Source: Diplonema papillatum (taxonomy: Eukaryota; Euglenozoa; Diplonemea; Diplonemida; Diplonemidae). Taken from it: a DNA stretch of 64,000 nt. Of this stretch, positions 4,916 through 49,308 are shown one piece after another; the first letter of the stretch is position 1, and each line of letters opens with the position of its first letter. The DNA is taken from contig JAPJBO010000197.1 in NCBI GenBank assembly GCA_030068145.1, positions 1-64,000 on the forward strand. Reading direction: 5' to 3'. The notes below the pieces were generated by a model, which saw nothing but the letters and a program-made list of their open reading frames with translations, was not told the DNA's origin and searched no databases. The position numbers and the translations under genes were made by a program.

Positions 4916-5480
4916 AAAAAAAAGAAGAGATCAGCCAGTCCAGGATGACTAAGCACGCTTGGACCCAGGCCAAACTCGCGATCCGCTTCGGGGGGCTGGG
5001 CCTCAGGAGCGCTGCGGACCACCACGCCGCAGCGACGCTCGCTTCCCTGTCCGCCTGGGAGGATCTGGCCAAAGAGCTGGACCCCAACTACCGGGTGGAC
5101 GAGAAAGCATGGAGGGAGGCGGCAAAGAAGTTCAACAAAAAAAAAAGGGAGGATATAGGTCGCAGCGGTCCTCAGGGGCCACTAAGCCAGAAGCTGCTGT
5201 CGAGCGCGATAGAAGAGGTCTACCTGAAAAAGGGTACAAGGTTGATGCAGGCTTTGGAATCGGCCCGAGTTCCGCCCCTGCCTGCGACGAGACAAGCACA
5301 GAACGCTTCACAGGAGCCATTGGAAAACGAAGTCTTAGCAGGGGGAGCCACCTCCGCGTCCCACACCACAAACACCCACCCAGGCGCCAACAAAACACCA
5401 GCCATGGCAGCAGGGAGAGTGGACGTGACTGGGACTGGGGGGGATGCGAGTGACACACCACAGGAGCCTCGGCAGGAGCC
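4916..5480 (+). pseudogene. Condensed copy of retrotransposon ORF segments
   Basis: An open frame from ATG 4,897 to 5,568 is a shuffled derivative of the main ORF downstream. Positions 4,922-5,234 match about 7,219-7,540, minus a 10-bp gap next to an AAAG repeat and with an A-run in place of part of 7,434-7,440. The sequence then jumps to 9,637-9,875 (the Pro/Thr-rich tail), skipping about 2.1 kb. The junction at 5,242 has at most one base of homology and no GT-AG boundaries, so it is a rearrangement and not splicing. It lies directly upstream of the parent ORF and overlaps its annotated start in another frame. Confidence 0.8.
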
Positions 5481-8400: not shown

Positions 8401-10765
8401 CGAGGCCGTCAGACGGAAAAGGGCGGAAGACTCAAAGGCGGAAGACTCAAGGGCGGCCGAGACGGCACCACAGAGATGCCTTCCCCCCATCTTCTACCCA
8501 GAGGGGGATTCCACGGGAGTCACAGACCCCGCCCCGGAGTCCCCCCCCTCCTCGCATATGGCGGTTGACGAAGAGGGGGACACCGAGGAACCCGTGCCCG
8601 AGGGCCTGCTGGAAGAAGGGGATGTGCTGATGCAAGGGCCCAGTCAGGATTCAGGTGAGGAGCAACCGGGGAGGGGGCGCTCCGCGGAACGCCACGGCTC
8701 AGGGCCGGCGACTGGCAGTCAGGGTCACCTGGCTACTGGGTCACAACTTGGTGGCCCATCCTCGGGCCAGGACACCGACAGGCCACGGGAACCCTCCTTC
8801 GTGAGCCCCGGGACAACGACCGGCCGCAGCGTCAGCCACAAAACAGGGAGCACAACGGACAGCACGCAAAAGGTAGGAAAGGTGAGAGAGGACAGCTCAC
8901 CCAGCGAGCAATCCGGCCTGAGCGAGGAGGACCGGGTGAGCTCCCGTAAAGGAGATGCGGGTAGGTACCGCAAGAAAAAAAAGGTGCAATCCCAGGCGAG
9001 GCGCGGACCCCAACTGAAGTGCAACATCGGCACGGCAGAACCGGAACCCACCCGGGCACCAGAGGCCCATCAGAAGTTAGGCTTCATTGACACACCGTCG
9101 GCGACGGCGAAGAAGATGACCGTGAGGGAGTACCTGGACAGAAAAGTGCAGTCGGAACAAGCAGACAAACCCCCGGCCGTAGAAGACAAGGGCCTAGCCC
9201 CCCCCCCCACCCCAGGTCTCCAGGCACCCAGTGGATCCACCCCCCCATCCCGGGTCGGCGAAGAAACGAAAGGGGCGGAGAGAGGGGTGGAGGGCAGCCG
9301 CGAGCGTCCACTCGACGTAGATGCCCCACCCGAGGCCATACCTCTGCCAGCGTCAGAGGACACGCCCTCAGGGCGGCCCGAGGAGCCTGATTCAGGGCTT
9401 CCCGGCCTTCGGAACCGGCCCCCAGACACGGTTGGGGCCGCACCAGCCGGCCCAAGGAGCCAACCGAGGGGGTCCGGCACGGCCATGGCCAAGCCCAGTG
9501 AGGGAGCGCCCCAAGCGGTCCCCATGACACGGCCTGGGACTGAAGGGGCCGACGAGGGAGAGGACACCGGTACTTCACAGAGCGGATCCGCCGGAGGGGC
9601 GGACGAACAGGCCTCCGGTTCACAAGACACAGTGGAGTTGATGCAGGCTTTGGAATCGGCCCGAGTTCCGCCCCTGCCTGCGACGAGACAAGCACAGAAC
9701 GCTTCACAGGAGCCGTTGGAAAACGAAGTCTTAGCAGGGGGAGCCACCTCCGCGTCCCACACCACAAACACCCACCCAGGCGCCAACAAAACACCAGCCA
9801 TGGCAGCAGGGAGAGTGGACGTGACTGGGACTGGGGGGGATGCGAGTGACACACCACAGGAGCCTCGGCAGGAGCAGGACGCGGAAGGACACGAGGCCCG
9901 ATCCCCGCAGACGTGCAATAGGAAGATACGTGGCGCCGTCTCGGCGGGAACTACCCCCACGACCCACTCCACAGCCACTCACCCGAGCGCCAACAAAACA
10001 CCAGCCATGGCAGCAGGGAGAGTGGACGTGACTAGGACGGGAGGGGACGCGAGTGACACACCACAAAAGCCTCGGCGGAAGCAGTGTGCGGATGGGCACG
10101 AGAATCAGACACCGCAGGCGTGCAAAAGGAAGGAGAATGACACCGCCTCGGCGGGAGCTACCCCCACGAACCACACCACAGCCACCCCCCCTAGCGCCAA
10201 CAAAAAACCAGCCATGGCAGCGGGGGGAGTAGATGTGAACGGGACACTGGGACCTAAGGCTCCTGCCGCGGCACCTAAGTCAGTCGATATCCTAGCCAAC
10301 AGTGGAAGGTCGAATGTCATGATCACGACCGCTATCCGGGCCGAAAAGGGTCGAGCGGGCCTCACGACCACGAATTCGTGCTACCTGCAGGCGGCTTTGA
10401 ACCTGATCGCGGTCACGGACATGGCACAGCAGGTAGTAGCCTTCCAGCGGTGCGACACGCATGAGAAAGGCGAACTTACCGCGGCGGTCCACAGGTGGGT
10501 GACAGGAGAACGGTCGGCGACGGTACTTCTTTCTGTACTTGCAAGCATCAGCGGTCCATTTGGAGACGGACGACAATGTGACTTGGGAGAGGTCCTGCGA
10601 ACGGTTGCCACCACGGTCCAGGAAGAGAACGCCGCCCACCGGGCCTGCAACACTCGGCAGACAGACCGGATCGCGGGCCTAGGGCACAGGTACACGGTCG
10701 ATGTCAGGTGCGGGAAGTGCCAGGCTGGCCACACTGCCCACGAGGACCTTCGTTTTCCAACTTAA
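5444..10765 (+). CDS. Non-LTR retrotransposon polyprotein: RT, CCHC finger, RLE, long tail, USP-like domain
   Basis: One uninterrupted ORF of 1,773 codons. Numbering from the ATG at 5,444: a conserved upstream region with FPRGSGAGPSSLR (about 226) and ALNKKDGDVRPIAVGE (about 282). Reverse transcriptase motif A is VDLKNAFNSVHR (about 360), motif B QQGDPMGPLLFSLA (about 412) and motif C YLDD (about 446). A CRIC-H-C zinc finger follows (about 757). The PD-(D/E)XK restriction-like endonuclease has HNAVRDE, then PGDVSLP (about 819) and SVDVTIVNP (about 835). Residues 900-1,620 are Pro/Ser/Thr/Glu-rich. The end has GLTTTNSCYLQAAL (about 1,639) and VRCGKC (about 1,754), resembling the Cys box and zinc-ribbon CxxC of ubiquitin-specific proteases, without a His box. 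By family knowledge the element moves by target-primed reverse transcription after nicking by its own endonuclease. The first 12 codons lie in duplicated tail DNA read in another frame, so the native start is probably lost or further in. Absence of stops suggests recent activity. Confidence 0.9.
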   Translation: MRVTHHRSLGRSPRRNPAGLQVEDTVGATIPDPGRGLPSWDEVAHLRCQTVAKVPRPVQRLWAETYIRTLRRVNTKRDEDSFILLYLFPKVCLWKSRGSGKRHHKKRASEIRDRLVAWGEGEYTDLWQEAKRASEASKVGKGRDAQDSEDEKIARATTLAKLGRFSQGNAALTAGGLAEDNDKTWRALEEKHPKAAAAYENIDYGEGPGALKVEPELVLQAIRSFPRGSGAGPSSLRAQFVKDAVEAPDVEGAIAETKDLVNLLLSGEAPTASMPYLAGATLIALNKKDGDVRPIAVGEVWRRLAAKCACAAVKKEAEKILVKDSQVGVAVQGGLEAAVQAVRGYSERNLGRSGKVILKVDLKNAFNSVHRDAMIRETKANLPELLPWVEWCYAGKSNLFMRGKVLKSEEGAQQGDPMGPLLFSLAIAPIVQKMKRETGLDLSLFYLDDGIFAGDKDKVLRAMELFQSECRKIGLEIGDKCEWILLDPCLNGDPKAWGFPEKTTFILDGNFHFLGAPIGDEDYCAKYLSDKVDSLRETFRMLKKMDDKQAAYLLLRYCDSFGKMVFYMRANPGRKTREVLSAFDDMVKDAAEEISQSRMTKHAWTQAKLAIRFGGLGLRSAADHHAAATLASLSAWEDLAKELDPNYRVDEKAWREAAKKFNKTVGREDIGRSGPQGPLSQKLLSSAIEEVYLKKVHKGYKDNPAELARLHTITQPHAASWLTAVPFDGKDLEPAEFEAAVKLWLGLAVYESGQTCRICKKESLDQAGRHALNCPNGGDRTAKHNAVRDELFLACSDAALNPIREEKHTLGTRPGLVPGDVSLPRGVNERRPRSVDVTIVNPMAPSVCKEAAKHPGYAARLGEAEKYCKYAKEMGRNNRTLTAFALESFGGFGAEARGFLRRVAGEAAKRARLDKAGVYRDYAERISIQVVKAAARSVLRRGEITDRGSLPAEVSVTEEEPVEITTPETEEWMAWMAWIEEGEALGEAVRRKRAEDSKAEDSRAAETAPQRCLPPIFYPEGDSTGVTDPAPESPPSSHMAVDEEGDTEEPVPEGLLEEGDVLMQGPSQDSGEEQPGRGRSAERHGSGPATGSQGHLATGSQLGGPSSGQDTDRPREPSFVSPGTTTGRSVSHKTGSTTDSTQKVGKVREDSSPSEQSGLSEEDRVSSRKGDAGRYRKKKKVQSQARRGPQLKCNIGTAEPEPTRAPEAHQKLGFIDTPSATAKKMTVREYLDRKVQSEQADKPPAVEDKGLAPPPTPGLQAPSGSTPPSRVGEETKGAERGVEGSRERPLDVDAPPEAIPLPASEDTPSGRPEEPDSGLPGLRNRPPDTVGAAPAGPRSQPRGSGTAMAKPSEGAPQAVPMTRPGTEGADEGEDTGTSQSGSAGGADEQASGSQDTVELMQALESARVPPLPATRQAQNASQEPLENEVLAGGATSASHTTNTHPGANKTPAMAAGRVDVTGTGGDASDTPQEPRQEQDAEGHEARSPQTCNRKIRGAVSAGTTPTTHSTATHPSANKTPAMAAGRVDVTRTGGDASDTPQKPRRKQCADGHENQTPQACKRKENDTASAGATPTNHTTATPPSANKKPAMAAGGVDVNGTLGPKAPAAAPKSVDILANSGRSNVMITTAIRAEKGRAGLTTTNSCYLQAALNLIAVTDMAQQVVAFQRCDTHEKGELTAAVHRWVTGERSATVLLSVLASISGPFGDGRQCDLGEVLRTVATTVQEENAAHRACNTRQTDRIAGLGHRYTVDVRCGKCQAGHTAHEDLRFPT
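9735..10245 (+). repeat. Triplicated coding module in the retrotransposon tail
   Basis: Three copies (starting near 9,740, 9,950 and 10,155; spacing about 207 bp, 69 residues) of a module with NKTPAMAAGRVDVT and GGDASDTPQ. Copies stay in frame, so the tail grows by whole modules. The third copy is the most diverged. No fold is apparent; the sequence looks disordered. Confidence 0.85.
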
Positions 10766-10786
10766 GCGCTTCAAACAAACTTCGTC

Positions 10787-12967
10787 TGTTGTTGCTGCTG
10801 CTGCCTTGCCGCTGCTATGATGCTGCTGCTGCTACTGCCTTGCTGCCTTGTTGCTGCTGCCTTGCTGCTGCTGCTGCTGCTGCAGCCTTGTTGCTGCCTT
10901 TCCGCTGCTATGTTGCTGCTGCTGCTTCCCTGCCGCTGCTGCCTTGCTGCTGCTGCTGCCTTGCTGCTGCTGCTGCCTTGCTGCTGCTGCTGCCTGTTGC
11001 TGCTGCTGCTGCCTTGTTGCTGCTCCAGCCTAGCTGCAGCTGCTGCTGCTGCTGCCTTGTTGCTGCTGCCTTGGCGCTGCAGTGTTGCTGCTCCTGCTTC
11101 CCTGCCGCTGCTGCCTTGCTGCTGCTGCTGCCTCTTGCTGCTGCTGCTGCTTTGTTGCTGCTGCTGCTGCTGCTGCTGCCTTGTTGCTGCTGCCTTGCCG
11201 CTGCTGTGTTGCTGCTCCTGCTTCCCTGCCGCTGCTGCCTTGCTGCTGCTGCTGCCTTGCTGGTGCTGTCCTGCTCCTCCTGCAGCCTTGCTGCTGCTGT
11301 CCCGCTGCTGCTGCTGTCTTGCTGCTGCTGCATTGCTGTTGCTGCATTGCTGCGGCGGCCTTGCTGCTGCTGCTGCTGCCTTGCTGCTGCTGCCTTACGG
11401 CGGCTGCCTTGCTGATACCTTGCTGCTGGTGTCTTGCCGCTGCTGTCTTGCTTCTGCTGCTGCCTTGCCGCGGCTGCCTTGCTGCTACTGCTGCCTTGCC
11501 GCTGCTGCCTTGCTGCTGCTGCCTTGCTGCTGCTGTCCTGCTGCTGCTCCTGCCTTGCCGCTGCTGTCTTGCTGATGCTGCCTTGCTGCTGCTGTCCTGC
11601 TGCTGCTGCTGCCTTGCCGCTGCTGCCTTGCTGATGCTGCCTTGCTGCTGCTGTCCTGCTGCTGCTGCTGCCTTGCTGCTGCTGCCTTGCCGCTGCTGTC
11701 TTGCTTCTGCTGCTGCATTGCCGTTGCTGCCTTGCCGCGGCTGCCTTGCCGCGGCTGCCTTGCTGCTGCTGCTGCTGCCTTGCTGCTGCTGCCTTACCGC
11801 GGCTGCCTTGCTGATGCCGCCTTGCCGCTGCTATCGTACTGCTGCCGCCTTGCCGCTGTTGCCTTGCCGATGCTGTCTTGCTGCTGGTGTCTTGCTGCTG
11901 CTGTCTTGCTTCTGCTGCTGCCTTGCCGCTGCTGCCTTGTTGCTGCTGTCTTGCTTCTGCTCCTGCCTTGCTGGTGCTGCCTTGCCGCTGCTGCCTTGCT
12001 GATGCTGCCTTGCTGCTGCTGCCTTGCCGCTGCTGTCTTGCTTCTGCTGCTGCCTTGCCGTTGCTGCCTTACCGCGGCTGCCTTGCGGATGCCGCCTTGC
12101 CGCTGCTATCGTGCCGCTGCCGCCTTGCCACTGTTGTCTTGCTTCTGCTGCTGCCTTGCCGCTGCTGCCTTGTTGCTGGTGGCTTGCTTCTGCTGCAGCC
12201 TTGCTGGTGCTGCCTTGCTGCTGCTGCCTTGCTGATGCCGCCTTGCCGCTGCTGCTGCCTTGCTGATGCCGCCTTGCTGCTGCCATCGCGATGCTGCCGC
12301 CTTGCCGCTGTTGCCTTGCTGCTGCTGCCTTGCTGCTGCTGCCTTGCTGCGGCTGCCTTGCTGCGGCTGCCTTGCTGCGCTGCCTTGCTGCGGCTGCTGC
12401 CTTGCTGCTGCTGCCTTGCTGCGGCTGCCTGCTGCCTGCTGCCTTGCTGCCTGCCTTGCTGCGGCTGCCTTGCTGCGGCTGCTGCCTTGCTGCTGCTGCC
12501 TTGCTGCGGCTGCCTTGCTGCGGCTGCTGCCTTGCTGCGGCTGCCTTCCAGATGCCGCCTTGCCGCTGCGTCGTGCCGCTGCCGACTTGCCGCTGTTGCC
12601 TTGCCGCTGCTGCCTTGCTGCTGGTGTCTTCCCGCAGCTGTCTTGCTTCTGCTGCTGCCTTGCCGCTGCTGCCTTGTTGCTGCTGCTGCCTTGCTGATGC
12701 CGCCTTGCCGCTGCTATTGTGATGCTGCCGCCCTTGCCGCTGTTGCCTTGCCTGCTGCTGCCTTGCTGCTGCTGCCTTGCTGCTGCTGCCTTGCTGCTGC
12801 TGCCTTGCTGCTGCTGCCTTGCTGCTGCTGCCTTGCTGCTGCTGCCTTGCTGCTGCTGCCTTGCTGCTGCTGCCTTGCTGCTGCTGCCTTGCTGCTGCTG
12901 CCTTCCTGCTGCTGCTTGCTTCTGCTGCTGCTGCCTTGCTGCTGCTGCCTTGCTGCTGCTGCTGCTT
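10787..12967 (+). repeat. CTG-rich 14-bp minisatellite, 2.2 kb array
   Basis: Array of CCTTGCTGCTGCTG units (14 bp) with scattered variants (CCG for CTG, TTGCTTCTG, CTGATG). The stretch 12,767-12,900 is almost pure. Because 14 is not a multiple of 3, each strand reads through all three frames in a 42-bp cycle (LLLLPCCCCLAAAA on plus), giving long open frames in every phase that I do not treat as genes. It truncates the USP-like domain of the upstream ORF and is followed directly by repeat R3. Confidence 0.95.
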
Positions 12968-13685
12968 TCTTGCCGACCTTTTTTACGCCTGGGAAGAGTA
13001 GGTGCGCAGCTCGGAGGCCAGATACGAAGTTAGGGGCTTTCACCCACAGCAAAGGAACTGCTTGCCTTGGCCGCGTTTCGAAAAACACGTTTCCAGGGGA
13101 CACCGCGAGGAGGTGGCAAGTCAGATTTTGTCCCCCAACCCCAAGACCACCCATTGAGAATTCCGGGGCCTTTGATGGCCAGCTTCTTGGACTTCACGAC
13201 CTCTCAGGACCACTTTGCTGAAGGAACACCGAAAACGTGATAGGCAACTGTTGCATGTCGAAATGGGGAGGGCACGTTCTCCCGAAGTTGCGACCCTTGA
13301 AAGAACGTCGTTCGTAGGAGCTTCGAATTCCTGTGACGGTTTCGTTGGATGCATCGGTCAAAATATCAACAAAAATATGTACCCATAGCTCTGACAGAAC
13401 CTTTTCGCTGACTCGTAACTTCACATACCTTGACTGCTTCCACACGAACTCTCGAACACCAGATTTTTCAAGCACAACTCCGACCCGAACCATCTTGTGA
13501 ATTTCTTTTCTTCTTCTAGTTCCTGTTTGCGTTGTGTGTGCTGAATCCTTTTTTCTTTCGAGTCGGCCTCTTCACACAAGAGGCCGAACCTGGACAAGAA
13601 GGCCCACATCGAAGCACTAAGAATCCATCAAATGCACGAGGGGGCCCGCAGGGCCACCGAGTGCGGGTTTGCGGGTTTGCGGGGT
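12968..13685 (+). repeat. Terminal repeat R, copy R3
   Basis: Close match to R1 (1,523-2,220), with the same position after a CTG minisatellite. It ends in about two GGGTTTGC units at 13,662-13,682 and then passes directly into unrelated sequence next to a gene on the minus strand. This marks the 3' terminus of the retrotransposon unit. Confidence 0.85.
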
Positions 13686-18549: not shown

Positions 18550-19978
18550 TTACGGCGCATGAACACAAGTGCAGGAGAAGGGGAGGGGTGAGAACATCTT
18601 GATGTTTTGACAGTACTGCCTAGTGTGCTGAAGGTCTGCCCTCACACAATGCACATGGAGCTTCCAGGTCGTCACGTCGGCGTCGTTGTCGTCGTCAGCG
18701 ACAAATGCATGCATGCAGAAACAGTCGGCTGACGAATGTCTGCGGATCCATCCAGGGTGGCAGCGTATCTTCTCCGTGGCGTTTGTCACCGAGAAGACGC
18801 TGTCGACCCCCGTCACGCTTAGCTGTGCGGTCAGCACCGCCGTGATGTGGGTCAACAGCGCGGGAAACTTCTCTGCTGCCGTTCCCCCCAACACGTGTTT
18901 CTCCACCACAATGGGGTTTTTCTTTTGGCGACGGGGTAGTTGCCGAGATTTTTGTGGTTAAATCCCGCACCAGTGGGTCGGAGAAGGCACAAAAACTGAC
19001 CCTGTATGGTTCTGAGGGCGAGTGAAGGGCGAGTGAAGGGCGAGTGACAGGGCGAGTGAAGACGAGTCTGGGGCGAGTCGTGACTCGCCCGCCACCTATG
19101 CCTAGGGGGGCAGCCGGTGCATACACGGGAGAAAAGAAATGTACCTGCTGTTGCGCAGCCCTTGATTCCAGTTCCCTGTTGCAGACGTCCCATCGATCTG
19201 CAGCTCGGTGAAAGACGATGTCGGATACATTTGGAAATCGTTTGGCAAAGGCCCTGAATTCTTCTTTTGAAATCAATCCTCGTCGATGAACATCAGCGGA
19301 ATCGAAGAGTAATTGCAGGTTGGAGTCGTTCACATCAATTAGCTCCCTCAGCCAGTGAATGAAGTCGGGTGCCGACAATGCTCCTCGGCCTTCAACATCC
19401 ATTTCGTCAAAAAGGTAACTCACTTTCTCTTCCTCTGTCGCTCCATCTCTACCTGTCTCATAAGCAGTACCTCTTCTAACCGAGGACTTTGACCCTGTGT
19501 GCATAGATGCCATGTGCACCTGAGCAGTAACATTCGGGTGCTGCCATTGTGCTCGAGCTGAGGGGTGAGTGGCTGAAGATCCTGACACCAAGTGCTGAGG
19601 AAGTCCTTTTTGGTGGATATTCCCATCTGATTGGTGGTTCGGGTGCTGTTCCCACGTGGGTGGTCGGGGAGGTGGTAAATCTTTCTGCACATCTGTATGC
19701 CACTGTGTTTGAGGCTGAAACGCATAGAGCTGCACTCCATCGTGAAGCTGCTCATTATTCACGAGGTCAACCCACTTGAGCACCTGGTCGTTAAAGATTT
19801 GTAGACGGTGAATATCGAACGGTGTTCGCTGATAGTTAGGCGGTCTGAGGAGCTCGGCTTCTGCATCCATGACGCGACATATCAGAGAACGAAGCTCTTG
19901 TACTGTGGCAGCAGGGTTGACTGACAGTTCAAGGTTCACCTTATCTGCATACAAGTCGGCGCAAACTGCAAGTAACAT
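18550..19978 (-). CDS. Ubiquitin-fold plus EF-hand protein, BILBO1-like
   Basis: Exon 1 is 19,978-19,145 (278 codons). It has an N-terminal domain of about 100 residues beginning MLLAVCADLYADKVNLELSV, which resembles the ubiquitin-like N-terminal domain of the flagellar-pocket collar protein BILBO1. A Gln/His/Pro-rich linker follows, then two EF-hand units (FDEMDVEGRGALSAPDF and FDSADVHRRGLISKEEF). Both loops lack some canonical ligands, so calcium binding is doubtful. A donor CAG|GTACAT (phase 0) can join in frame to a proposed exon 2 at 18,900-18,550, after the acceptor GTGGAG. Exon 2 encodes 116 residues with HPGWIRRHSSADCFCMHAFV and a TAA stop; this join is tentative. The 244-bp intron holds a GACTCGCCC repeat. 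ATG 19,978 is preferred over an in-frame upstream ATG at 20,026 because the conserved domain begins there. The BILBO1 link is from recall of domain order, not an alignment. Confidence 0.6.
18960..19106 (+). repeat. GACTCGCCC repeat family, copy inside an intron
   Basis: Same family as 15,008-15,160. Its last 44 bp are the inverted partner of 18,300-18,343. It occupies most of the predicted intron of the ubiquitin-fold/EF-hand gene. Confidence 0.85.
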
Positions 19979-20610
19979 CGTAGTGCCTTCTTGTGCACCC
20001 CCCAACACCACCCCCAATGTTGGCACCTACGAGTTTCTTTGTTTTGCTGTTTTCTCCACGGATTTAATTGGGGGAGTGGATTTCTACAATCGCAGAACTA
20101 TTTCCAGCGAAAAAGAGGGGGGGATCTTAGTCACTGTTTGGGCCGAATCTTGTCTCTAGGCCCTGCGCCCACCTAGGACCCACCCACCCCAGGGCCAGAA
20201 GACGTCTGGTTACGCTGGCGACCACACAGCTTGTACCTATAGCGATCACACGGTGAGTCCGACGTGAAATTATTACGTCGATTCTGCAATCCCTTGATTC
20301 TGCCGTCGTTTTTGGCGTCGCGGAAACACTGTCTTCCCGGCTGTACCGGTTTTTGCCATCATCAGTCCCACCAGCTCTTTGCACAACTCATTCTCATCAT
20401 GCAGCTTTGCTTCGACAGCAGTGTAGGAAAATGTCTTCCCTAGGTGTAACGGTCTACTCGTACAAGAAAATAATCATCATTTGACAGGCCATCTGCGGTG
20501 ATGCATCATCCGCAGAATACGATCATGTATCCGTTCAGGCTTGTGTCATCTGACAAGTTGTGTCCTTTATGTTGAATACTCAGCAGTCAACTACAGTGTA
20601 GTCAACGCTC
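19979..20610. other. Intergenic, nothing recognised
   Basis: Upstream region of the ubiquitin-fold/EF-hand gene. Short open frames on both strands overlap each other and lack domains. Confidence 0.4.
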
Positions 20611-20614
20611 AGCT

Positions 20615-20870
20615 CCTCTGGTGCGGTTCGCTGTTCCTGCAGGAGTCCTCGAAGCCCGCATCCCCGACAGGGGAGACACGAAGAACGAAGCGATCGCGCA
20701 CCACGAAAGCGAGCGGGAGCAAAACTTGACCTGGACTGACCTCATCCTCATCACCGTTGACACTGCCAACAAACGAATTCATAGAGTAACACTGCCCGTG
20801 AACAGTCCTCGCTTGCCTTGATGGCACTTGCAACTTTACAGATCAATGCTTGACAGCACTGCCTGTTGGT
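20615..20870 (+). repeat. Dispersed repeat D, copy 1
   Basis: About 250 bp sharing blocks in order with 50,940-51,250: GCATCCCCGACAGGG, GAAAGCGAGCGG, TTGACCTGG, a CATCATCRCTGAC-like block and ATGGCACTTGCA-CTTTACAG. The blocks look like the remains of a coding sequence, but no intact frame survives. Confidence 0.65.
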
Positions 20871-21114
20871 GCCCCTTCCGCTCGGTGGTGTCAGTCGCTA
20901 CAGCACTTTGCCGTCGTCTTACACAAGGTGCGCTGTACCTTCCTGAGAAGGGATAGACACACAGCAGAACCCGCGCAAAGTGGTGGCACCAGGCCCGTCC
21001 CGTATATTTTCCTGTTAGCTCTAGCTTCAGCTTTAGCTTTTACTTGAAGCTGGCCTCGATGGTGTAGATTCGGAAATAGCCACACCACAGCCAATGAAGA
21101 CCACGAAGTTGCAA

Positions 21115-21245
21115 GTTTGAGAGAGAGAGAGACGAGTTAGAGTGCAGGGACCATCTCTCCGAGGAGTATCCGGTCGCCCCACTACTATCCCGTACTACTA
21201 CGGCGGGCGTAAGTCGTTGCGCCGTGGGCGCCGAGCGAGCCGCGG
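21115..21245 (+). repeat. Dispersed repeat E, copy 1 (starts with a GA run)
   Basis: A (GA)n run, then GAGTGCAGGGACCATCTCTC and CGAGGAGT, matching 24,610-24,770. The minus-strand frame here (21,040-21,339) follows the repeat and is not called. Confidence 0.7.
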
Positions 21246-21349
21246 CCCCGTCAAAGATGATTGTTGCACCGATGGTGGCGCAGTTTGACGTAATTTGCCA
21301 AGGAGCTATCACATTAACGTCCTGCACTGCGGCTGGCACATGTTGAGAA

Positions 21350-22560
21350 GAAGGAGAGGCATGGAAATGAGACCAGTCACGTAGAAACGATAAATATGTG
21401 TTTTCGAATTAAAACAAAATAAAGCAAAAGGATGAACTGGGGGGCAGGGTGAAACTTGCTGAGAGCGAGGTGGGGTTGGAGTGGTGGGAGAGGGGGGTTA
21501 ACAGAAACAGGTCGAAGAAGCGCTCATCCCCACGCGGTACTCGAAGTTAAAACTTCGGTTCTGGCTAGCAATGAGAACAAAAAATCGTGCACTTGTGCAG
21601 CTGAACGGCTAAGGGCAATGCACCATGCTGCTTTCCTTGCACATCTGCAAATGCAACAATCACTTCACGTGAATCGCTTAATCGCATGAAAAGTGCTCTT
21701 TGCCAGGACTAAAACAAAAGAAAACATGTGAAAAGGGGGATGGAAAATTAGGTCGAACAAACAAGTAAAACGAATTGGGTAGGTTCGAAGGGAGCGGAAA
21801 CCGTGGGCTGGTGAGCCCCACCGATGCCACGAATTACAACTTTCGCCATATTCTGTATTGCAACCGAGGTCAAAATAGAGGCCTCGCTGTACGCAGGTGT
21901 GCAGTGCAGGATACACCTCGGTCACTCGCGAAAGACTACGACACGGCCTCTGACCAGGACACACAGAACGTGCGGACAAACGGCCGGCGCACTAGACTGT
22001 CCCTGATCGTTGTGCCCCTGAGTTTCATCGGTCGCAGAAGATAGTGCCAGAGGCGCTTCTCGATATGGAGAGGCGGGAGGAGTACAAAGGCGGCATCGGG
22101 GAGGGCAGGAAAAGTGGGAGATAGTGGGGTACAGTACAATGGCGAGAATTGTAGAAAGAGTTTTGGACGTATATTGTTCGGCGTGTGTTGGAAGTGGTGG
22201 CCGAGTCGACAGAAAAGGGAAGAAGCTAAACAGCACAAGGCACGCCGAGCAGGGCGTAATTTTTCATATCGCCTCACATCTGTTGACAAGTCTTCGGTTG
22301 CGTGAAGTTGACAACTCAATCCATGACTCGAAATCATTTTCTGCTGTACCTTGGCTGGCTTCTACTTTATTTATTATTTGTTTACGTGTCCACAGTGGTT
22401 CCTTGGCAAAGGGTTTGAAAGGTTGTGGGGAAGAAAAAGAAGCAAACTGGTCTCTCCGCCGCATAGCTTGTTGCATTCTTTATATGGTACTTGAAGTGGA
22501 AGTTGCACAGGATACAATTTTGATCTCAGCCTTCGGTGACGATCTGAATAAAACATGGTA
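21350..22560. other. Intergenic, nothing recognised
   Basis: Downstream side of the Cys/His repeat gene, presumably including its 3' UTR. Several overlapping open frames show no domain or exon logic. Confidence 0.35.
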
Positions 22561-24608
22561 CTATGCTTCCGGCGGTGTTTGCGGGGTTGCGGCCGTGTCG
22601 GGAAGCTGTGCTTGGGTCCCTTCGAGCGGGTCAGGTGACATTTCAAAGCGGGGTGTGCGGCATTCATCGAGTGCCACGCGGTGTACGCGCTTTTCAGATG
22701 TGAAAGTTTGGTTTGAGGAGCAGACACCATGGTCCCGTCCGTGACCATGGTCATGCGAGTGTTCCCGGTGTGGAGAGCAGCCGTCTAGCAAATGACGATG
22801 CCCTCTCTTTTGCTCGTTGAATTGGTTGTTGGACTTGCACCTGGGTGAAATCTCGCCTTCCGCAGCCTCGCGCTCCCTGCGAGCCGATAATTGTCTCTCT
22901 CTCTCAACGCTTCTGCAAGAATCAATTTGGTGGCTGTGTCTTCGCTTGTCGGTGTCCAGCTTTGCGAGAGAGACGCAGTGGGTATCACCATCCCCATGGC
23001 CGTGCCCACATCCAGCGCCATGTCTGTGACTACCAGACCCGTCTCTGCACTCATCGGTCATGTGCTTGTGCTTCCGCTTGTCCTCAGAGTACACTTCGTT
23101 AGAAACACAATGCGAAGGAGACGTGGACGCAGCGGCCCTACGCAGGCTCATGTCCTTTGTGTGTGACTTCTTCTGGTTGTTGAGCGCGATGTTGCTTTTG
23201 TCGGTTTTCGGTGTCTGGTGAGAAACTGTCATTCGCTGGCCGCGTTCAGGAGAACAGCTGTCTAAGGCATGGTCGTGGTTCTTCTTCAACTTCGTAAGCT
23301 GATGGTGCGATGTGCAAGGTCCTTCATCGCAGTGGCTTTCATCATCCAAGTGCGGCATTGTGTGGCACTCGTCCATACCATGGCGGTGCCCGTGCTTGGC
23401 TCGAGTGAATCTGTGTGCTTGTTTTTAGGACAGGTTTGCGGAACCCCCGCTAATTTGTGATTTCGGCTCCTTGTTGTTCCTGTTGATCTCTGTGCTACGA
23501 AACAACAACTTTCGTCCGCGGCAATGGAGATGTTCTAACAAGAGTCCTGTCGTGCTAGCAATGTTCTTTTTCCGGATGGCTCGTCTACAATGGCTAAAAG
23601 TGATACGCAGAGCTGCGCCGAGTTTGATCTGCATGGCTGAATGAAAGTCGACAGAGATACCCTGTGCAGACCTTGTTTGTGCGCACTAGCGGAACTCACC
23701 TGCTTTGGTGAGTTTCATGTATGCATTGTTAACACAAAGAAATAATGCAGCAAAGAGGCAAACCTTTCAACACTTTTACACTGGCCTGTGTGTTCATGAA
23801 CTTCTGGGACCGATTCCCTGTCTTGGCATTCATCCATGCCATGGCGGTGGCGCTGCTTTTCAGAGCGGAAGCGCTCGGCAGATGTGCAACGAGGCGACTT
23901 GCCGTGGTCGTGGTCGTGGGAGTGGTAGTGCGACTTGTCTTGACATTCGTCGAGCCCGTGACGGTGCAGTGCCTTGTCAGCGCGGAATCGCTCCTGCGAT
24001 GTGCACCTGTTCGACATGTTCCCGGAGCGATCGCTTCGCGCGGGAGACTGCTCGTATTCTGTAGAACGGCCTGCTCTGCGAGGTGTGCACGAGTCCATTT
24101 CATGCTTGTGCTTTCGCTTGACTTCATTGAACATATCATTTGACGAGCACTGTCCTTGCTTGTGCCCGCCGTGAGCGCAGCATCCGGTTTGCTGTGTGCC
24201 CGATCGGTCGGGAAGGACTGGTGTCAAGTGTTCATCCTTCTCGTGACCGAACTCTCGGCAAGACTTGTGGTACGGCGGTCCACGGGCGCTCAACTCATCA
24301 TGAGTGTGTCCGTAAACAGTCCTCTTCGGCGGCTCGCCACGATCACGCGGGGGTGAGTTCAGGACTTCGGCCTGATGCCTGATTTTGTCGTGCTCAAACT
24401 CGTTGTGTGACAAGCGAGCGCTGTAGTTACCTCCGTTTCCTGAGACGGCGGACCTCGGCGTCATTGCATCTGACTTCCGCGGCATCGACATATCGCAGCC
24501 GTGCAGCTTCTTTGCACGCTGCATTTCACTGAAACTCGAGTAGCCCGGCATTTTGGAGTGTTGTCTTGAGTGCGTTCTTTCAAGTTTCGCTTTCGGATTG
24601 CTGTACAT
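22561..24608 (-). CDS. Cys/His-x-His/Cys tandem-repeat protein
   Basis: Two exons: 24,608-23,764 and 23,410-22,561 (564 residues). The join GAAAG|GTTTGC to CACACAG|ATTCAC keeps the frame and restores one repeat exactly at the boundary, which is strong support. The protein is about a dozen units of 35-45 residues with the pattern C-x-S-x(5,6)-[FLY]-x(3)-K-x(2)-H-x-H-x(3)-D-x-C. The clearest units are in residues 140-300; for example RCTSAERFRSEKQRHRHG then MDEC. Spacers are His/Asp/Gly-rich (HYHSHDHDHG, HGHGDGD). The first two units and one in the middle are degenerate and lack Cys. The regular Cys and His spacing suggests metal binding, by inference. No signal peptide or membrane segment is seen. 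The start could also be ATG 24,551. No known family is recognised. Confidence 0.75.
23673..23751. repeat. Shared intronic element, copy 1
   Basis: About 50 near-identical bp, including GTGCGCACTAGCGGAACTCA, plus a TTAACACAAA block, matching 31,498-31,602. It lies 12 bp from the donor of the 353-bp intron of the Cys/His repeat gene. Confidence 0.8.
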
Positions 24609-24609
24609 A

Positions 24610-24770
24610 ATAAGAGAGAGAGAGCGAGAGAGAGACAAGTTGGAGTGCAGGGACCATCTCTCCGAGGAGTTTCCGGTCGCCTCACCACAACCCCGTACTT
24701 CTAAGGTCGTTCCGTCGGAGGCGCGGTGCGGGCCGCTGCCCTGTCACCGAGGGTGACGGCGTCGGTGTTG
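24610..24770 (+). repeat. Dispersed repeat E, copy 2
   Basis: GA run and GTGCAGGGACCATCTCTCCG as at 21,115. It overlaps the presumed 5' UTR of the Cys/His repeat gene. A weaker third copy follows at 24,980-25,080, and a related GA-led fragment lies at 32,618-32,670. Confidence 0.7.
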
Positions 24771-25502
24771 ACACAATCGGGGCCTATCTGGCTGGCGGGC
24801 GAGCCCGTTTCGCGGGGGAGCACCGTCTTGACGCGTCGCGGGCTCTATATCAATAAGATATTTCGAAGACAATGCCAAGAAATGCGTAGTTTTGTTTGAA
24901 GACAATGCCAAGAAAACAAAGCGGGGTCGGGCAAAGCCAGCCATGTAACGAGCATCTCCGCCTCCCTTTTTATGGAGGAAGGGGGACCACCTCTCCGGGA
25001 AGCTTTCGGTCTCCTCACTCCCCGCCGTTCTCACGGCGCGTTTCGGAGGCGCGCTGCCGGTCGGCTCTGGTACGGTCTAGGCCACAAACTCATTCGTGCA
25101 CAGCACTAGAGCCACGGCTCTTCTTTAGAGGCAACGGTAAAAGCTGATGGTAAAGCGTAAACCCGAAGTAATTCAACTTCGCGACGCATCGCAGAGAAGG
25201 TGCCCGCAAACCCCTCCGTGTTCCTATGGGCTTCGTATCCAGGGACCTGAGCGCGGGTTTACGAAAGGTGACGGTAGCAATTGGTAGTGTCACTCCCAGT
25301 ATTACGTCAGCAGTAGCACAGTAAGCATCCGCTCGGCTGCATCACAAGGTAAAGGCAAAAGGCACAAATACGGTGACACTTGCACTCTTTTGAGCGGCTG
25401 AAGCAAGAGGTCATGCACGTGAAACTAGCAATGTTACACCAACAGCGCACCGTCATGAGTGAGCTGTGCTTGCTGGGCAGACTGTGAGCTGCCAAAGACG
25501 AA
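24771..25502. other. Intergenic, repeat remnants only
   Basis: Contains a weak repeat E fragment (24,980-25,080) and two short copies of AGACAATGCCAAGAAA at 24,869 and 24,900. No gene is seen. Confidence 0.4.
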
Positions 25503-28500
25503 TCACGCCAAATCGGGGTTCTGCTGAATTCCACCGGTGAGTGCATCAATCGTGGCAAGCACGGCGCGCATCGTGCACGAACTCATAAAAGACGGTTTCC
25601 GAGCCGCCCACTGTTGCAGGGACACCAGAATCTGGGAGGAATACGGTGATGACCTCAATGTGTCAGCACAACCAGCCACGAAAAGCCGCACATAGTAGGC
25701 ACTGTGCACACCACCGGATACTGCTGGGGGGCCTTGCATTGTATCAGCCGTATCCATGCCAAGTAGCCACGCCACAGCATATGCATCAGTTAGCTGCTGC
25801 GCTGACGGGTGCTGTCTGCGCACACTTTCTGTCGCAGCAATGATCAGTTTAGCAATGTTGCTTGTTGAACCATTTAGCCATTCTACCAGCTGAGAGCCGC
25901 CTTCTTCGGTGTCAGCACAGCTGAAACCCGCAATCGACTTACTGACAAAATCAACCACTTTTTCAGCCTCGTCATAGAGTCCACTGACCGCGGATTGAAT
26001 GGCGGTTGTCGGTTTGAGAGGGCATCCCGACTCGGAGAGGGAGCCCTCGCAAGAAACTTCTCCAGGTTTCGCTTTAAGTTCCGCGTGCTTGAAATCTTCG
26101 AGTAAATGCCACTCACGAGCGATGCACTCAGCGGACTTGTAGTCGCCATTGGCGCAGCAATGCGCAAAAACGTCCTCCCCTCGGTCCAGAGCTAACAACG
26201 ACAAGAGGCTGCGCGGATCTGCCATGTCACAGGAGGCTTTCTCCATTGCCGACAGCCATTTGTCGTGGCCCTCTGACCGAGTCAGTGCCGCCCAGAAATA
26301 GCGCGAGACGCCGCAACCCACTGCAGCTGACGAGGCTGCGTCGAAATTCCCGAGCAAAGCGTGTGCCACGGGAGAAGCAGCTGAAATCACGTTGGGCGAG
26401 CCTTCGTGAGCCAGCATTTCTAACACAGGCTTCGCGTCTGCTCCACCAAAGAGACATGACGCTAAGGCAAGGTTGGCGCTGGGTTGGCTTGTTGCGGGCT
26501 TAATGCGGGACGCTCCTCCCCAACGGGCTTCTTGGGTTGTTTCCTTCAGGAGACGCCCCCCGTCGTCCACATTTGATTCAGATAATAGCTCTTCAGACTT
26601 ATCGTCGGGCTGCTGGTCTAACTTCTGCAAGACCAATTCCGCCAGTTCGGCAAGTTCGGGTGCGGTCAACGCCTCTAATAGCGAACCTTTGGGCAGAGAA
26701 AAGAGCCCTGCGCGCGGTGTTTGCTGTGTGTCTCCCCGGATCCACATCGCAGGTGACGCTTTCAATTCGGCAAGACGTGCCTTCTTGACGCGCTGTTCAG
26801 TTGCAGCGTTGCTGTTCCGTTTTGCAGGTGTCAATTTCTGTGTGTGGGCGCCCACTTGATCCATGCCACACGAACTGTCTTCGCAGTATGCTTCAAATGA
26901 TGCGATGTTGACCGCATGTACGCACGAATCGTCAGCAAAATACAGGAGACCCTGCTTCAAAGGGCTCCACGCCACGCTTACTGCCTGTGCCACGAGAGGT
27001 AATACACCTACGAGGCGCAGTTGCTCCTGACTTGCCGCCCACAACGCGATCTTCTTGTCTTTTCCGACAGTACACAGTAGAAGGGATGTCTGCCCTTCCG
27101 CAACCAGGGGGCACTTGGCAGCAGGAATGCTATTCCATGCCAAGGAAAGCATCCCTTTTGAATGTCCTGCTGGGCCTGCTTCCAAGAACCGTGATTCCCA
27201 AGTGGCATTTGCCTGGTGATCGTCTAGCGTGTGAGGTTGCTGTTGGCAACTGACTTCTAAAGTTGTCGGAACACATGAGCTTTCTGTGGTGCATGCAACC
27301 AGCCACCTGCGACCGGATCCGGACATGATGACTGAAATACATGACACTTGAGAGAAGGGAATGGCAACAACGAGCGTCAAGTTCAGCTCAATGTCTTTAT
27401 TAGCCAACAGCTTTTGCCCCGCCTCATTTTCATCGTCCGGTTTTGTTGCGTCAGCCTCTTGCAATACGCTCGAAGAGTCAAAACAGAAGTCGCGTGCGAC
27501 GAAGAACGAAAGACGCTTGCCCGAGGCTATTGCAAGCAGCCCGTTGCGGTACCCAGCAGCGTCGACGTTGAAAGTAGCGCCGGCTTCGCTGACAAGGTTC
27601 TTTTTGCTGACGCTGGCGTTGCCATTGGTGTGTTTGCTGTTGCTTCGGTGGCTCGGCGGTTCAGCGGTTTCGGGGAGCTTCACAACATGCACAATTGAAC
27701 TCTGGCCTAGTGCGATAAGCAGATTTGGCCCCACCCACTCAAGCAGCACAGGGCGCGAAGCTAGCGACACAGGAACGTCTGTGTGCTGTGTTCGCTTGCC
27801 GGACGCCGTGTGTACATCGTACGCAACTCCAATCTCTCCGTCGCTTGTTGCAAAAGCAAGGTTTTCTCGGCACGGTGAAAGCGCCACTTTCACGGGAGGC
27901 GACGCAACCTTGCGCCAGTGTGTTCGGTGACTGTACGGATTCGCCTTCGCGAGACTATATCCAATGCTGGACGTGTTCGTAGCCGGAACATCGTTTTTGC
28001 TGCCAGGGTCGGTTTGGGAGGGCAGCGTAGTGTGCTCATTCGGAACGTGCCAGAGCAGAACGTCTTTTTCACTAACGGCGAGAAGTCCTGCAGAATTGGC
28101 AGCCAACGAACGTGGGCACGTGGAAAGAAGCGGAAGAGTCCACACAGTCTTTGATCGGCGAGCGTCCCAGAAGAGCATTCTTTTCTCTATCGAAAGCGAG
28201 ACAAGAATTGGGTCAAGATCCCGGGTGAATGCTAGATTCAGGACTGGCCGGTTATGTCCCTTGAGCACTTCGGGTGCTGTCATCGCTGCTGTGCCAGGAG
28301 GACTCCCTCGCTGTGCCCATTTCGCCAGAAACTCGGTGAGGTTATAATGCATGATGTTGTGTGTACCAGATAATGGAGCGGTTGTGTACAACTGATCAGT
28401 GTAGCCTGTGTATGGACAGAAAAGAACACTCGACCAGATCGTATCACGTCCAGGGGCGCGGCTTTTCTGTGCGGTTTCAAGCCTTAAAGACTGAGACTGA

Positions 28501-34312: not shown

Positions 34313-36871
34313 TCACACCGAGGAAAAAGCTGCTTCCATAGACTTCTTCGCCGACCAGAAGGCGACTTTAGCACGCTCGACGGTGAAGTCCAAGAGAGAA
34401 GGAGGGCCACCTTGACAGATCAAGCCGCCGCAGACGTGGCATTTGGACTGCTGTGCCCCTACTGCGGCAAAGCATGCAGGGCACGTCATCGTGAACTGCT
34501 CTAACTCTTTGTCCAGGTCTTGCATCACTTCTTTGCTTTCGGCTGTATCTGCGAGTTCGTCGTCCGCATGGAACTCTGCTACTTCGAGGTGCCTCCGGCG
34601 GGCTCTGTTTTTCTGTTCCTGGCGTAGATACAGTGACCTGCCTCCGAAAAGACAACTCGCGAACAGGAGGAGAAAGACAACAACAATCACAACCGTTGCC
34701 GCCGGGCTGCCACCTCCGTTGTCTTCTTCGTCGGCCGCCAACTGCGTTGGTTGGTACCAATGCGCGCCATTTTCTTGACATAAGGTGCCGGTGGCGTTGC
34801 AATCGTTTTCGACGGCCGAAATCCCTACGCACCACGTCTGCTTTAGGCACTCACATGCGCACTCCTCAACGTCAACGTCAAAGCGTTGGTGCTGGATTTC
34901 CTGCCAGTCGCAGTGAGGGATGTCGCTACTGTACTTCACCTCGCGAACAGAACATCTCTCGGGCGGTGCTCCTGTCGAAGGCGCCGTCGTCGGTGTTCGC
35001 GTTGCCGGTGGCTGTGTTGCCGGTGACTGCGTTGCCGGCGGCTGCGTTGCCGGTGCACTACTTTGTGTGACAGGAGGATTCGTGGTGTTCGTTGCATTAT
35101 CCTGGGGCGCTTCTGATTCGGAAGGTGCTTGAGAAGGAGATCGCGTCTCGTCGGGCGCCATCGAGGGCGTATCTGTTCCAGGCTCAGATGTGTTTGGCGG
35201 CAATGTGGGAGGAGATAACGTTTCGCCGGGCGCAATTGAGGGTATACTTGTATCGGTCTGAGACGTGTTCGGCGATGATGTAAGTGGAGGTATCGTTTCG
35301 CCCGGCACCATCGAAGGCGTATCTGTTTCAGGCTCAGATGTCTTTGGCGACGATGTAAGTGGAGGTATCGTTTCGCCTGGCACCATCGAGGGCGTACCTG
35401 TTTCAGGCTCAGATGTGTTTGGCGATGATGTAAGTGGAGGTATCGTTTCGCCCGGCACCATCGAAGGCGTATCTGTTTCAGGCTCAGATGTGTTTGGCGA
35501 CGATGTAAGTGGAGGTATCGTTTCGCCTGGCACCATCGAGGGCGTATCTGTTTCAGGCTCAGATGTGTTTGGCGACGATGTGGGAGGAGATATCGTTTCG
35601 CCGGGCACTATACTTGCATCAGGCTGAGATGTGGTTGGCGGCGATGTCAGAGGCGACATCGTTTCACCAGGCGCCATCGAGGGTGTATCACTAGGCTGAA
35701 GGGTGCTAGGCAGCGACGTGGAAGGAGATATCGTTTCGCCGGGTGCCAAGGTGGGCATACCTGTTTCAGGCTGAGATGTGTTTGGCGACGATGTATGAGG
35801 AGGTTTCGTATCGCCGGGCGCCAACGAGGGCACATCTGTTGCATTGGGAGCAGGCAATGGAGAGGGTTGATCTGTGCCATTGGGTGACGTTGTTGGCGGG
35901 GAAGCAGTTGTGGGATGGGACGATGCAGGCATAAGTGTAGAAGGCGCAATAGAAGGAGCATCGGTAGGGGTATTGGTATGCGGTGCAACTGTTAGTGGTA
36001 CCATAGTAAGCGGAACAGACGTCGTTGGTATTGTACACTGCATCCACCCCAGATACATGCTTTCGTTCGTTGCAAGTTCCACATCGATTGAAGGATCTTT
36101 TAGCCCGGATTCTAATCCATCACATGTAATCTTCCCATTCCGATTCTGCGCCTTTGTCTCGTTCACATAGCACCACGAATCGTCGTACTCGGGAGTACTC
36201 GAGCAACCTGTGTACTCCATGTCCCCGTGGTACCAGTAGTCTAGACAACTGCAAGGTTTATCGTTGCTCCACCCCTGGGTAGAAGCGAAGTAAAAAATCA
36301 GGCCGCCCAGTGCCAGAAATACGAGGAGTGCAATGGCTCGGGCGCAGATTGTACCGCGGAAGCCGCCCTTTTTCTCACTGTCTTCTTCGGATTCCTCGTC
36401 TTCTTTAGAAGGTGCAACCACCAATCCGTACATCAGCAACGTACTGATCCCTGCACCGATCATCGCCCAGCCGACTATCAGCGTTCCTGTGTAGATCATC
36501 TCGATCTCCAATCCAAGTGTGTTCAGGTAATCTGCCTGCTTCAGGACCTCGATGCCCAAAAAGACCTGCAGCAGGGACTTTCCCAAAAAGGTCTCTGCAA
36601 AGTGGGCACGATTTAAGAACGCCCGCACCTTCACTTCTGCCAGAATAACCATGACCCCTACAGCCACGTAGCTGACACACGAAGCAATGAAGAATATCTG
36701 CCCCTTCAGTTCACGCTCTTCTTTCCCGATTTCGATCAGCGACGAGCCATTTGGGTTAACTTCGTTCTCGACGAGGAGGCCCAGACCTCCAATACTCGCC
36801 AAGCTGCATACGATCACGAGGACGTTCACAAACCTTTTCAAAATTGCGACGATGAGGTCACCCTTTTTCAT
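34313..36871 (-). CDS. Tetraspan mucin-like membrane protein with cytosolic zinc ribbon
   Basis: 851 residues from ATG 36,871. An in-frame upstream extension to 37,048 is ignored because it runs into a transposon end. Four hydrophobic segments occupy about residues 1-200 (LIVAILKRFVNVLVIVCSLA first). A Cys-rich module follows (CSCLDYWYHGDMEYTGC and WCYVNE), then about 330 residues of Pro/Ser/Thr repeats. Next is a Cys-rich module resembling PAN/apple or EGF (CSVREVKYSS, ECACECLKQTWC), a single membrane helix (ATVVIVVVFLLLFASCLFGG), and a cytosolic tail with CPAC-CHVC. The repeat unit is 25 residues (75 bp) with MVPGETIPPLTSS and NTSEPETDTPS. N-x-T sequons in it suggest a heavily glycosylated surface protein. 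Family and function are not recognised. Confidence 0.7.
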   Translation of the reverse strand: MKKGDLIVAILKRFVNVLVIVCSLASIGGLGLLVENEVNPNGSSLIEIGKEERELKGQIFFIASCVSYVAVGVMVILAEVKVRAFLNRAHFAETFLGKSLLQVFLGIEVLKQADYLNTLGLEIEMIYTGTLIVGWAMIGAGISTLLMYGLVVAPSKEDEESEEDSEKKGGFRGTICARAIALLVFLALGGLIFYFASTQGWSNDKPCSCLDYWYHGDMEYTGCSSTPEYDDSWCYVNETKAQNRNGKITCDGLESGLKDPSIDVELATNESMYLGWMQCTIPTTSVPLTMVPLTVAPHTNTPTDAPSIAPSTLMPASSHPTTASPPTTSPNGTDQPSPLPAPNATDVPSLAPGDTKPPHTSSPNTSQPETGMPTLAPGETISPSTSLPSTLQPSDTPSMAPGETMSPLTSPPTTSQPDASIVPGETISPPTSSPNTSEPETDTPSMVPGETIPPLTSSPNTSEPETDTPSMVPGETIPPLTSSPNTSEPETGTPSMVPGETIPPLTSSPKTSEPETDTPSMVPGETIPPLTSSPNTSQTDTSIPSIAPGETLSPPTLPPNTSEPGTDTPSMAPDETRSPSQAPSESEAPQDNATNTTNPPVTQSSAPATQPPATQSPATQPPATRTPTTAPSTGAPPERCSVREVKYSSDIPHCDWQEIQHQRFDVDVEECACECLKQTWCVGISAVENDCNATGTLCQENGAHWYQPTQLAADEEDNGGGSPAATVVIVVVFLLLFASCLFGGRSLYLRQEQKNRARRRHLEVAEFHADDELADTAESKEVMQDLDKELEQFTMTCPACFAAVGAQQSKCHVCGGLICQGGPPSLLDFTVERAKVAFWSAKKSMEAAFSSV
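35160..35780 (-). repeat. 75-bp coding tandem repeat
   Basis: Eight to nine units of about 75 bp encoding the Pro/Ser/Thr mucin-like repeat. The central four (35,281-35,580) are nearly identical, suggesting recent expansion or conversion. Outer units are diverged. Confidence 0.9.
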
Positions 36872-37027
36872 TGCTCTGTTTACATATATCTTGAATGAAC
36901 CCCATCCTGGATGTTTACAGAGATTTGAGGTGTACATGGCGAGAAGCGCTTGTTTTTTTGCTGAAATGAGAACAGCTGGCTTGTTTTTGCTGAATAGTAA
37001 CACATTGCACTCAAACTTACGGTAGGC

Positions 37028-45325: not shown

Positions 45326-49308
<3,983 letters not shown>

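Follow-up and report, generated by a model that had tools for sequence, protein, structure and literature searches.

What kind of protein is built from tandem units in which Cys and His residues recur at regular spacing, and do these residues define the repeat? The question is raised by a minus-strand gene at positions 22,561 to 24,608 of the window, a stretch of 64,000 nucleotides of DNA from the marine unicellular flagellate Diplonema papillatum (contig JAPJBO010000197.1, here C197). The initial annotation had described its product as an unrecognised two-exon protein with about a dozen C...HxH...C repeats, each proposed to hold a metal site or to form a disulfide-linked hairpin. Our findings bear out the repeat itself and point away from a metal site of Cys and His as its defining feature.

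Before joining, the gene consists of two minus-strand open frames, 24743-23715 and 23424-22561. The coordinates of the two annotated exons, of the 353-bp intron and of the stop codon at 22561 were confirmed on the minus strand: the coding part of exon 1 lies at 23764..24551, the predicted GT-AG intron (AAAG/GTTTGC ... ACACAG/ATTC) at 23411..23763, and exon 2 with the stop codon at 22561..23410. The annotated join was said to restore a repeat exactly. Among 28 GT/AG pairs near the junction (seven donors in 23800-23716 and four acceptors in 23440-23376), only 23763/23411 restores a complete unit 7, and it also gives the best unit score, on a profile that included unit 7 itself and was therefore biased towards the known answer; eight other pairs keep the frame open with unit 7 broken. 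According to PMC12621601, three of the four diplonemids with canonical introns use a (G)/GTATG donor and one a shorter G/GT, all four use a CAG acceptor, and CA-rich motifs occur in the introns of five of six species, a set to which D. papillatum does not belong. Compared with these splice sites, the acceptor of the window gene would fit well and its donor passably.

The start of the protein depends on trans-splicing, to which essentially all D. papillatum mRNAs are thought to be subject, as described in PMC10161547. A polypyrimidine tract at 24609..24638 (minus strand), 5' of the gene, is the probable trans-splicing signal; it reaches TTATTATG at 24608, and the first AG comes after this ATG (TACAG/CAATCC) and is likely the trans-splice acceptor. 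Since a leader joined there would lie downstream of the ATG at 24608, which the open frame also includes, the first usable ATG would be 24551, and translation probably starts at this second site. The joined protein has 564 residues from ATG 24608 and 545 from ATG 24551. The deduced 545-residue form begins MPGYSSFSEMQRAKKLHG, that is, with unit 1, so that a start at 24551 would place unit 1 at the N-terminus, like that of the paralogue on contig C2810, which begins MTSFTSAAELALAKRKHAT.

The core of the repeat, S-x7-K-x2-H (S.7.K..H), occurs 13 times in the window protein, compared with a mean of 0.38 and a maximum of 4 in 5,000 shuffles, and the strict form C.S.7.K..H....D.C occurs nine times, against none in 20,000 shuffles. 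Units follow one another at 31-49 residues (mean 40.75). Both Cys residues are present in nine of the 13, eight of which also carry H-x-H, while units 1, 2, 3 and 9 have neither Cys; the dozen repeats of the annotation therefore stand for the core and not for the Cys form. All units lie on the minus strand. Units 1-3, without the pair, occupy 24207..24542, and units 4-6, with it, 23826..24149, including a His-rich spacer between 5 and 6. The intron-split unit 7 spans 23365..23780 (23780-23764 plus 23410-23365). Unit 8, with the pair, lies at 23254..23316 and corresponds in the alignment to unit 5 of the C2810 paralogue; unit 9, without it, lies at 23140..23202 and aligns with paralogue unit 6, K-D-M-S being common to both. 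Units 10-13, all with the pair, fill 22660..23109, where one His-rich spacer follows unit 10 and another follows unit 12.

These units do not appear to be a recent product of DNA amplification. Tandem Repeats Finder reported no DNA repeat array in 20000-27000, and codons for the same residue in different units were identical in 185 of 342 comparisons, which is the chance level (shuffled mean 176.5, sd 11.2). The lack of a tandem array, together with randomised synonymous codons, rules out recent amplification and argues for an old protein motif that selection has maintained.

The repeat has no counterpart in the libraries searched. Pfam returned no family for the window protein at E up to 10, and Pfam scans of the spliced protein, of each exon, of the C2810 paralogue and of the other members returned no repeat family. 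PDB sequences, also searched at E up to 10, gave no match with the window protein, two unit profiles or the C415 member described below. Viral contigs (two queries) and prokaryote genomes (one query) yielded no relative in scans with six short peptides each, by which only close relatives are detectable. A text search of the literature for the motif, not made by sequence, found nothing among the matches listed. The description of an unrecognised tandem-repeat protein thus holds for Pfam and PDB sequences, where the strong match to a named repeat family that would have spoken against it was not found.

Relatives were found within the same genome, a 271-Mb assembly in which only the best candidates were scored, so that on sequence criteria the family comprises at least the five loci obtained, the window gene among them. 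The closest is the C2810 paralogue (C2810:220-1359; 380 residues, nine units), which matches the window protein at E 6.5e-15 as query and 3.9e-17 with the window protein as query; units 8-12 of the window protein and units 5-9 of the paralogue are collinear in the alignment, and in these pairs the core is mostly kept and Cys changed. On the minus strand of C415, at about 130.0-133.1 kb, three frames carry 8, 1-2 and 3 units and may be fragments of a single gene. When a unit profile was made from the window protein and the C2810 paralogue only, it matched the C415 frames at E 1.2e-14 and 2e-11, the middle frame reaching only about 0.04-0.05, and matched a 744-residue frame on C151 at E 3e-9. 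The window protein matches C415 directly but weakly (E 0.09), and C415 and C151 match each other at E 9.3e-4. The C151 member has three units followed by a PDZ match (E 0.011, below Pfam's cut-off) and a C1-domain match (E 0.25, also below the cut-off and not significant).

The fifth locus, a 1419-residue frame on C882, has seven core matches against 0.116 expected and a maximum of 3 in 3,000 shuffles. It was absent from all profiles; in a small search E values of 0.00012 and 0.00037 were obtained for its best single units, and in a wider search 0.0036 and 0.011. As a control, the frames of C415, C151 and C882 were reversed, and none then gave a match better than E 1. An artificial consensus array, which had found C882, revealed no further clear locus in the genome among the best candidates scored. 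Membership was based on a significant unit-profile match, and 21 candidate loci were excluded from the family on this basis, with a best frame E among them of 0.52 (C17): C28, C617, C758, C100, C17, C21, C403, C528, C93, C730, C12, C377, C158, C335, C41, C139, C14, C444, C181, C424 and C600.

Several further features were observed at or near these loci. The C151 member (L068:1528-3762, minus strand) contains a Trp-rich stretch ending R-A-R-W-S-D-G-D-T-W-L-R-W, for which Pfam gave no match. What looks by eye like a decayed partial copy of the second unit of the C2810 paralogue lies 5' of that gene (L003:1644-1745, minus strand), and a broken match to the 5' region of the C151 member (E 1.7e-5, one stop) lies at C151:68300-68401. 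Gene 5'-end repeats beside genes are described for D. papillatum in PMC10161547. On the excluded contig C758 (27022-30329; G000), eight spaced weak matches (E 0.008-0.021) to residues 126-193 of a stitched C151 query apparently form a tandem array, at which the unit profile does not match.

To describe what stays constant, we counted 37 units from the window protein, C2810, C415 and C151, leaving out the weak second unit of the middle C415 frame and all C882 units. Ser3 and an F/L/Y/M residue at position 7 occur in all 37, Lys11 in 34 and His14 in 35, counts that are inflated because these positions belonged to the selecting patterns. Position 18 did not, and it is hydrophobic in 35 units (32 M/I/V/L, two Cys and one Tyr). 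Similarly, five of the seven C882 core matches are hydrophobic at position 18, against a background of 16%, and they include one Cys21 alone and no Cys pair.

The cysteines behave otherwise. Cys1 is found in 10 and Cys21 in nine of the 37 units, and all nine pairs belong to the window protein, that is, 9 of its 13 units compared with none of the 24 units at C2810 (nine units) and at C415 and C151 (15 units). The Cys pair thus varies within the family. Its restriction to the window protein, with the core kept elsewhere, argues on the available sequences against a Cys/His metal site as what defines the family. The proposal of one such site, or one disulfide hairpin, per unit is consequently not supported as the defining pattern, either by the four window units that lack Cys or by the 24 units elsewhere.

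If the unit is not defined by a metal site, its constant positions may be those of one face of a helix. Positions 3, 7, 11, 14 and 18 fit within an 80-degree arc of an alpha-helix, as do only 0.21% of five-position sets, or 0.36% of sets with positions 3 and 18 fixed. The conservation moment, calculated over the 22 units of the window protein and the C2810 paralogue, peaks at 95-100 degrees (p 0.004-0.017 at 100 degrees), a helical periodicity that becomes marginal if any angle counts (p 0.05-0.22, depending on the range). Pro accounts for one of 518 residues at positions 4-17 of the 37 units, and mean helix propensity at these positions is better than in the spacers of the window protein (0.43 vs 0.74 kcal/mol).

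An AlphaFold2 model of the exon-2 peptide alone, predicted from a single sequence with low confidence (mean pLDDT 47.5), contains three helices, disorder and no strand. Helix 192-209 covers nearly all of unit 12 (191-211), helix 148-184 corresponds to unit 11 (145-165) plus its linker, and helix 112-122 to part of unit 10, while units 8, 9 and 13 are coil, which places helix in three of the six whole exon-2 units. The best-scored stretch (171-180, pLDDT 78) is the linker after unit 11, outside any unit. The helices over units 10-12 speak for a unit that is probably helical; the low confidence, the coil in units 8, 9 and 13 and the place of the best-scored stretch speak against it.

The Cys and His residues of the window protein nevertheless form a pattern that calls for an explanation. 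Cys1 and Cys21 occur together in nine units and are both absent from four (Fisher p 0.0014), and His16 goes with the pair (8 of 9 Cys-pair units vs 0 of 4 others; p 0.007). The Cys pairs and His-rich linkers may serve metal binding or disulfides between units. The former could make the window protein a metal buffer or sensor, in which a Cys-bearing unit and its neighbour bind Zn or Cu through Cys1, Cys21, His14 and His16, the His-rich spacers add capacity, and the paralogues lost the pair or never possessed it. Co-occurrence of the Cys pair with His16 is what a metal site or a disulfide would give, His makes up 27 of 272 spacer residues compared with 2 of 191 in the C2810 paralogue, and the eight Cys of that paralogue, some near equivalent places, make a loss possible. 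We nonetheless consider this reading unlikely: residues that are not ligands (Ser3, Lys11 and those at positions 7 and 18) persist at loci without the pair, and Pfam returned no match at E up to 10. Moreover, if the unit is helical, Cys1 and Cys21 would stand at its opposite ends, by our estimate some 25-30 angstroms apart, too distant for both to bind the same metal ion, or for a bond between them, in a single unit.

The same strict pairing could instead reflect disulfides that cross-link the helices of neighbouring units or molecules, in a protein that is secreted, exposed at the cell surface or lumenal and that makes up an insoluble fibre or sheath. This appears improbable, and less probable than metal buffering, as the N-terminus (MPGYSSFSEMQRAKKLHG) shows by eye no signal-like hydrophobic stretch, and the Cys pair is missing from the 24 units at three loci and from the seven C882 core matches.

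The reading that we prefer, and hold at about even confidence, is that of a basic protein, for the most part disordered, that serves as a multivalent scaffold; its helical motifs would dock on a repetitive partner, perhaps of the cytoskeleton. Each unit, with about 17 residues in every 40 or so, would form an amphipathic helix, probably capped by Ser3, one face of which would present residue 7 (F/L), Lys11, His14 and residue 18 (M/L/I/V). The 13 helices of the window protein, on flexible linkers, could then bind next to one another along a partner that is repetitive or multimeric. The likeliest kind of partner would be the cytoskeleton, such as the microtubule lattice, since its binding sites recur and since repeats are found in several cytoskeleton-associated proteins of Trypanosoma brucei, according to the account in PMC8625193. 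In the window protein, where nine units would have their helix flanked by the Cys pair and where His is abundant in several linkers, metal or oxidation could clip or tune the assembly. The C151 member, with its PDZ-like end, would fit a scaffold role.

The two closest members, the window protein and the C2810 paralogue, are basic as whole proteins (pI 8.35 and 9.43). This fits the scaffold reading, but the acidic charge of the trypanosome repeats chosen for comparison counts against it. A basic charge, with units rich in K, R and H, would also suit a His/Lys-rich array that wraps RNA or DNA, and RNA processing is elaborate in diplonemids. We give this explanation little credence, since the conserved face includes two hydrophobic positions and not only basic ones, and Pfam matched no RNA- or DNA-binding domain in the family members scanned.

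A more specific form of the scaffold reading can be put forward only tentatively: S-x3-F-x3-K-x2-H-x3-hydrophobic might be an undescribed diplonemid or euglenozoan helical docking motif, of which each disordered scaffold carries 3 to 13 copies; in one member most of these motifs would be clipped by Cys and His under metal or redox control. If true, such a motif would represent a lineage-specific way to build or tune the cytoskeleton. With at least five loci and no match among Pfam families or PDB sequences, the repeat family offers a testable handle on what may be particular to diplonemids, and the contrast between a member with Cys pairs and His-rich spacers and paralogues without the pair is a natural one for the role of the added residues. 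As reported in PMC12324889, D. papillatum can be tagged at the endogenous locus.

Elsewhere in the window, all non-retroelement frames with a Pfam match at E up to 0.01, the repeat gene excluded, lie on the minus strand; they are 7 of the 12 minus-strand frames scanned, and only two plus-strand frames were scanned. This bias is weakly consistent with that expected of polycistronic units. The minus-strand frame at 18695-20026 combines EF hands with a match to the BILBO1 N-terminal domain (E 4.6e-6, just below Pfam's cut-off), an arrangement familiar from the flagellar pocket collar of trypanosomes. On the plus strand, 5429-10765 is a frame of 1778 residues with a reverse transcriptase match (RVT_1, E 7.1e-18), apparently a LINE-like element. 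It adjoins degenerate short repeats at 10766-13029, open in several frames on both strands, with translations rich in A/Q/S/K/R on the minus and in C/L/A on the plus strand. Some 400-500 bases of triplet repeat at 48060-48550 read, depending on the frame, as poly-Thr or Leu (minus) and poly-Val or Ser (plus). A 921-residue minus-strand frame at 34313-37078 has membrane-like stretches, by eye a Thr/Ser/Pro-rich tandem repeat of about 25 residues, and a weak COPI_assoc match below Pfam's cut-off.

In the wider genome, a 20-base spliced-leader end of Euglenozoa occurs 624 times (328 + 296), and its reversed control 0 times; in the one copy inspected it sits in the longer leader sequence of Diplonema. 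At both C66 and C164, some 220 bases separate a U2 snRNA gene from a leader match, and C1335 carries 27 of the 46 scored U2 matches. In the C66 locus Rfam gave no 5S gene at its threshold, and at L070, another locus with leader matches, it gave no match at all. PMC10161547 describes the SL, 5S and U2 genes of D. papillatum as arranged in a tandem unit, with up to 27 U2 genes in a row, and says that this unit seems absent from other diplonemids. The same report counts 110 SL RNA genes, compared with the 624 leader ends found here. The surplus copies may lie in transposons.

Judged by sequence, then, the repeat family is a real one, unrecognised by the libraries searched, and probably of the disordered tandem-motif scaffold kind, not of the zinc-finger or metallothionein kind. 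What it shares with C2H2 zinc fingers and metallothioneins is a tandem array in which Cys and His recur at set distances. However, the C2H2 unit has the ligands C-x2-4-C ... H-x3-5-H, constant across copies, whereas the window unit combines C-x19-C with H-x-H, has no Pfam match, and shows the Cys pair in 9 of 13 window units and in none of 24 elsewhere. Metallothioneins are small and dense in C-x-C motifs, while the window protein has 24 Cys in 564 residues and, again, no Pfam match. Thymosin-beta/WH2 arrays and tau/MAP-type repeats are similar as short binding segments on disordered linkers, but the Pfam and PDB searches found no sequence similarity. The trypanosome proteins MARP-1/2, Gb4, WCB and I/6 are likewise tandem-repeat proteins of Euglenozoa, the MARP-1 repeat having about 38 residues. 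As characterised in PMC8625193, the repeats of MARP-1/2 bind microtubules directly and those of the MARP type are negatively charged. It is by this description that the window unit (S...F...K..H) is set apart, with acidic repeats there and basic proteins (pI 8.35 and 9.43) here.
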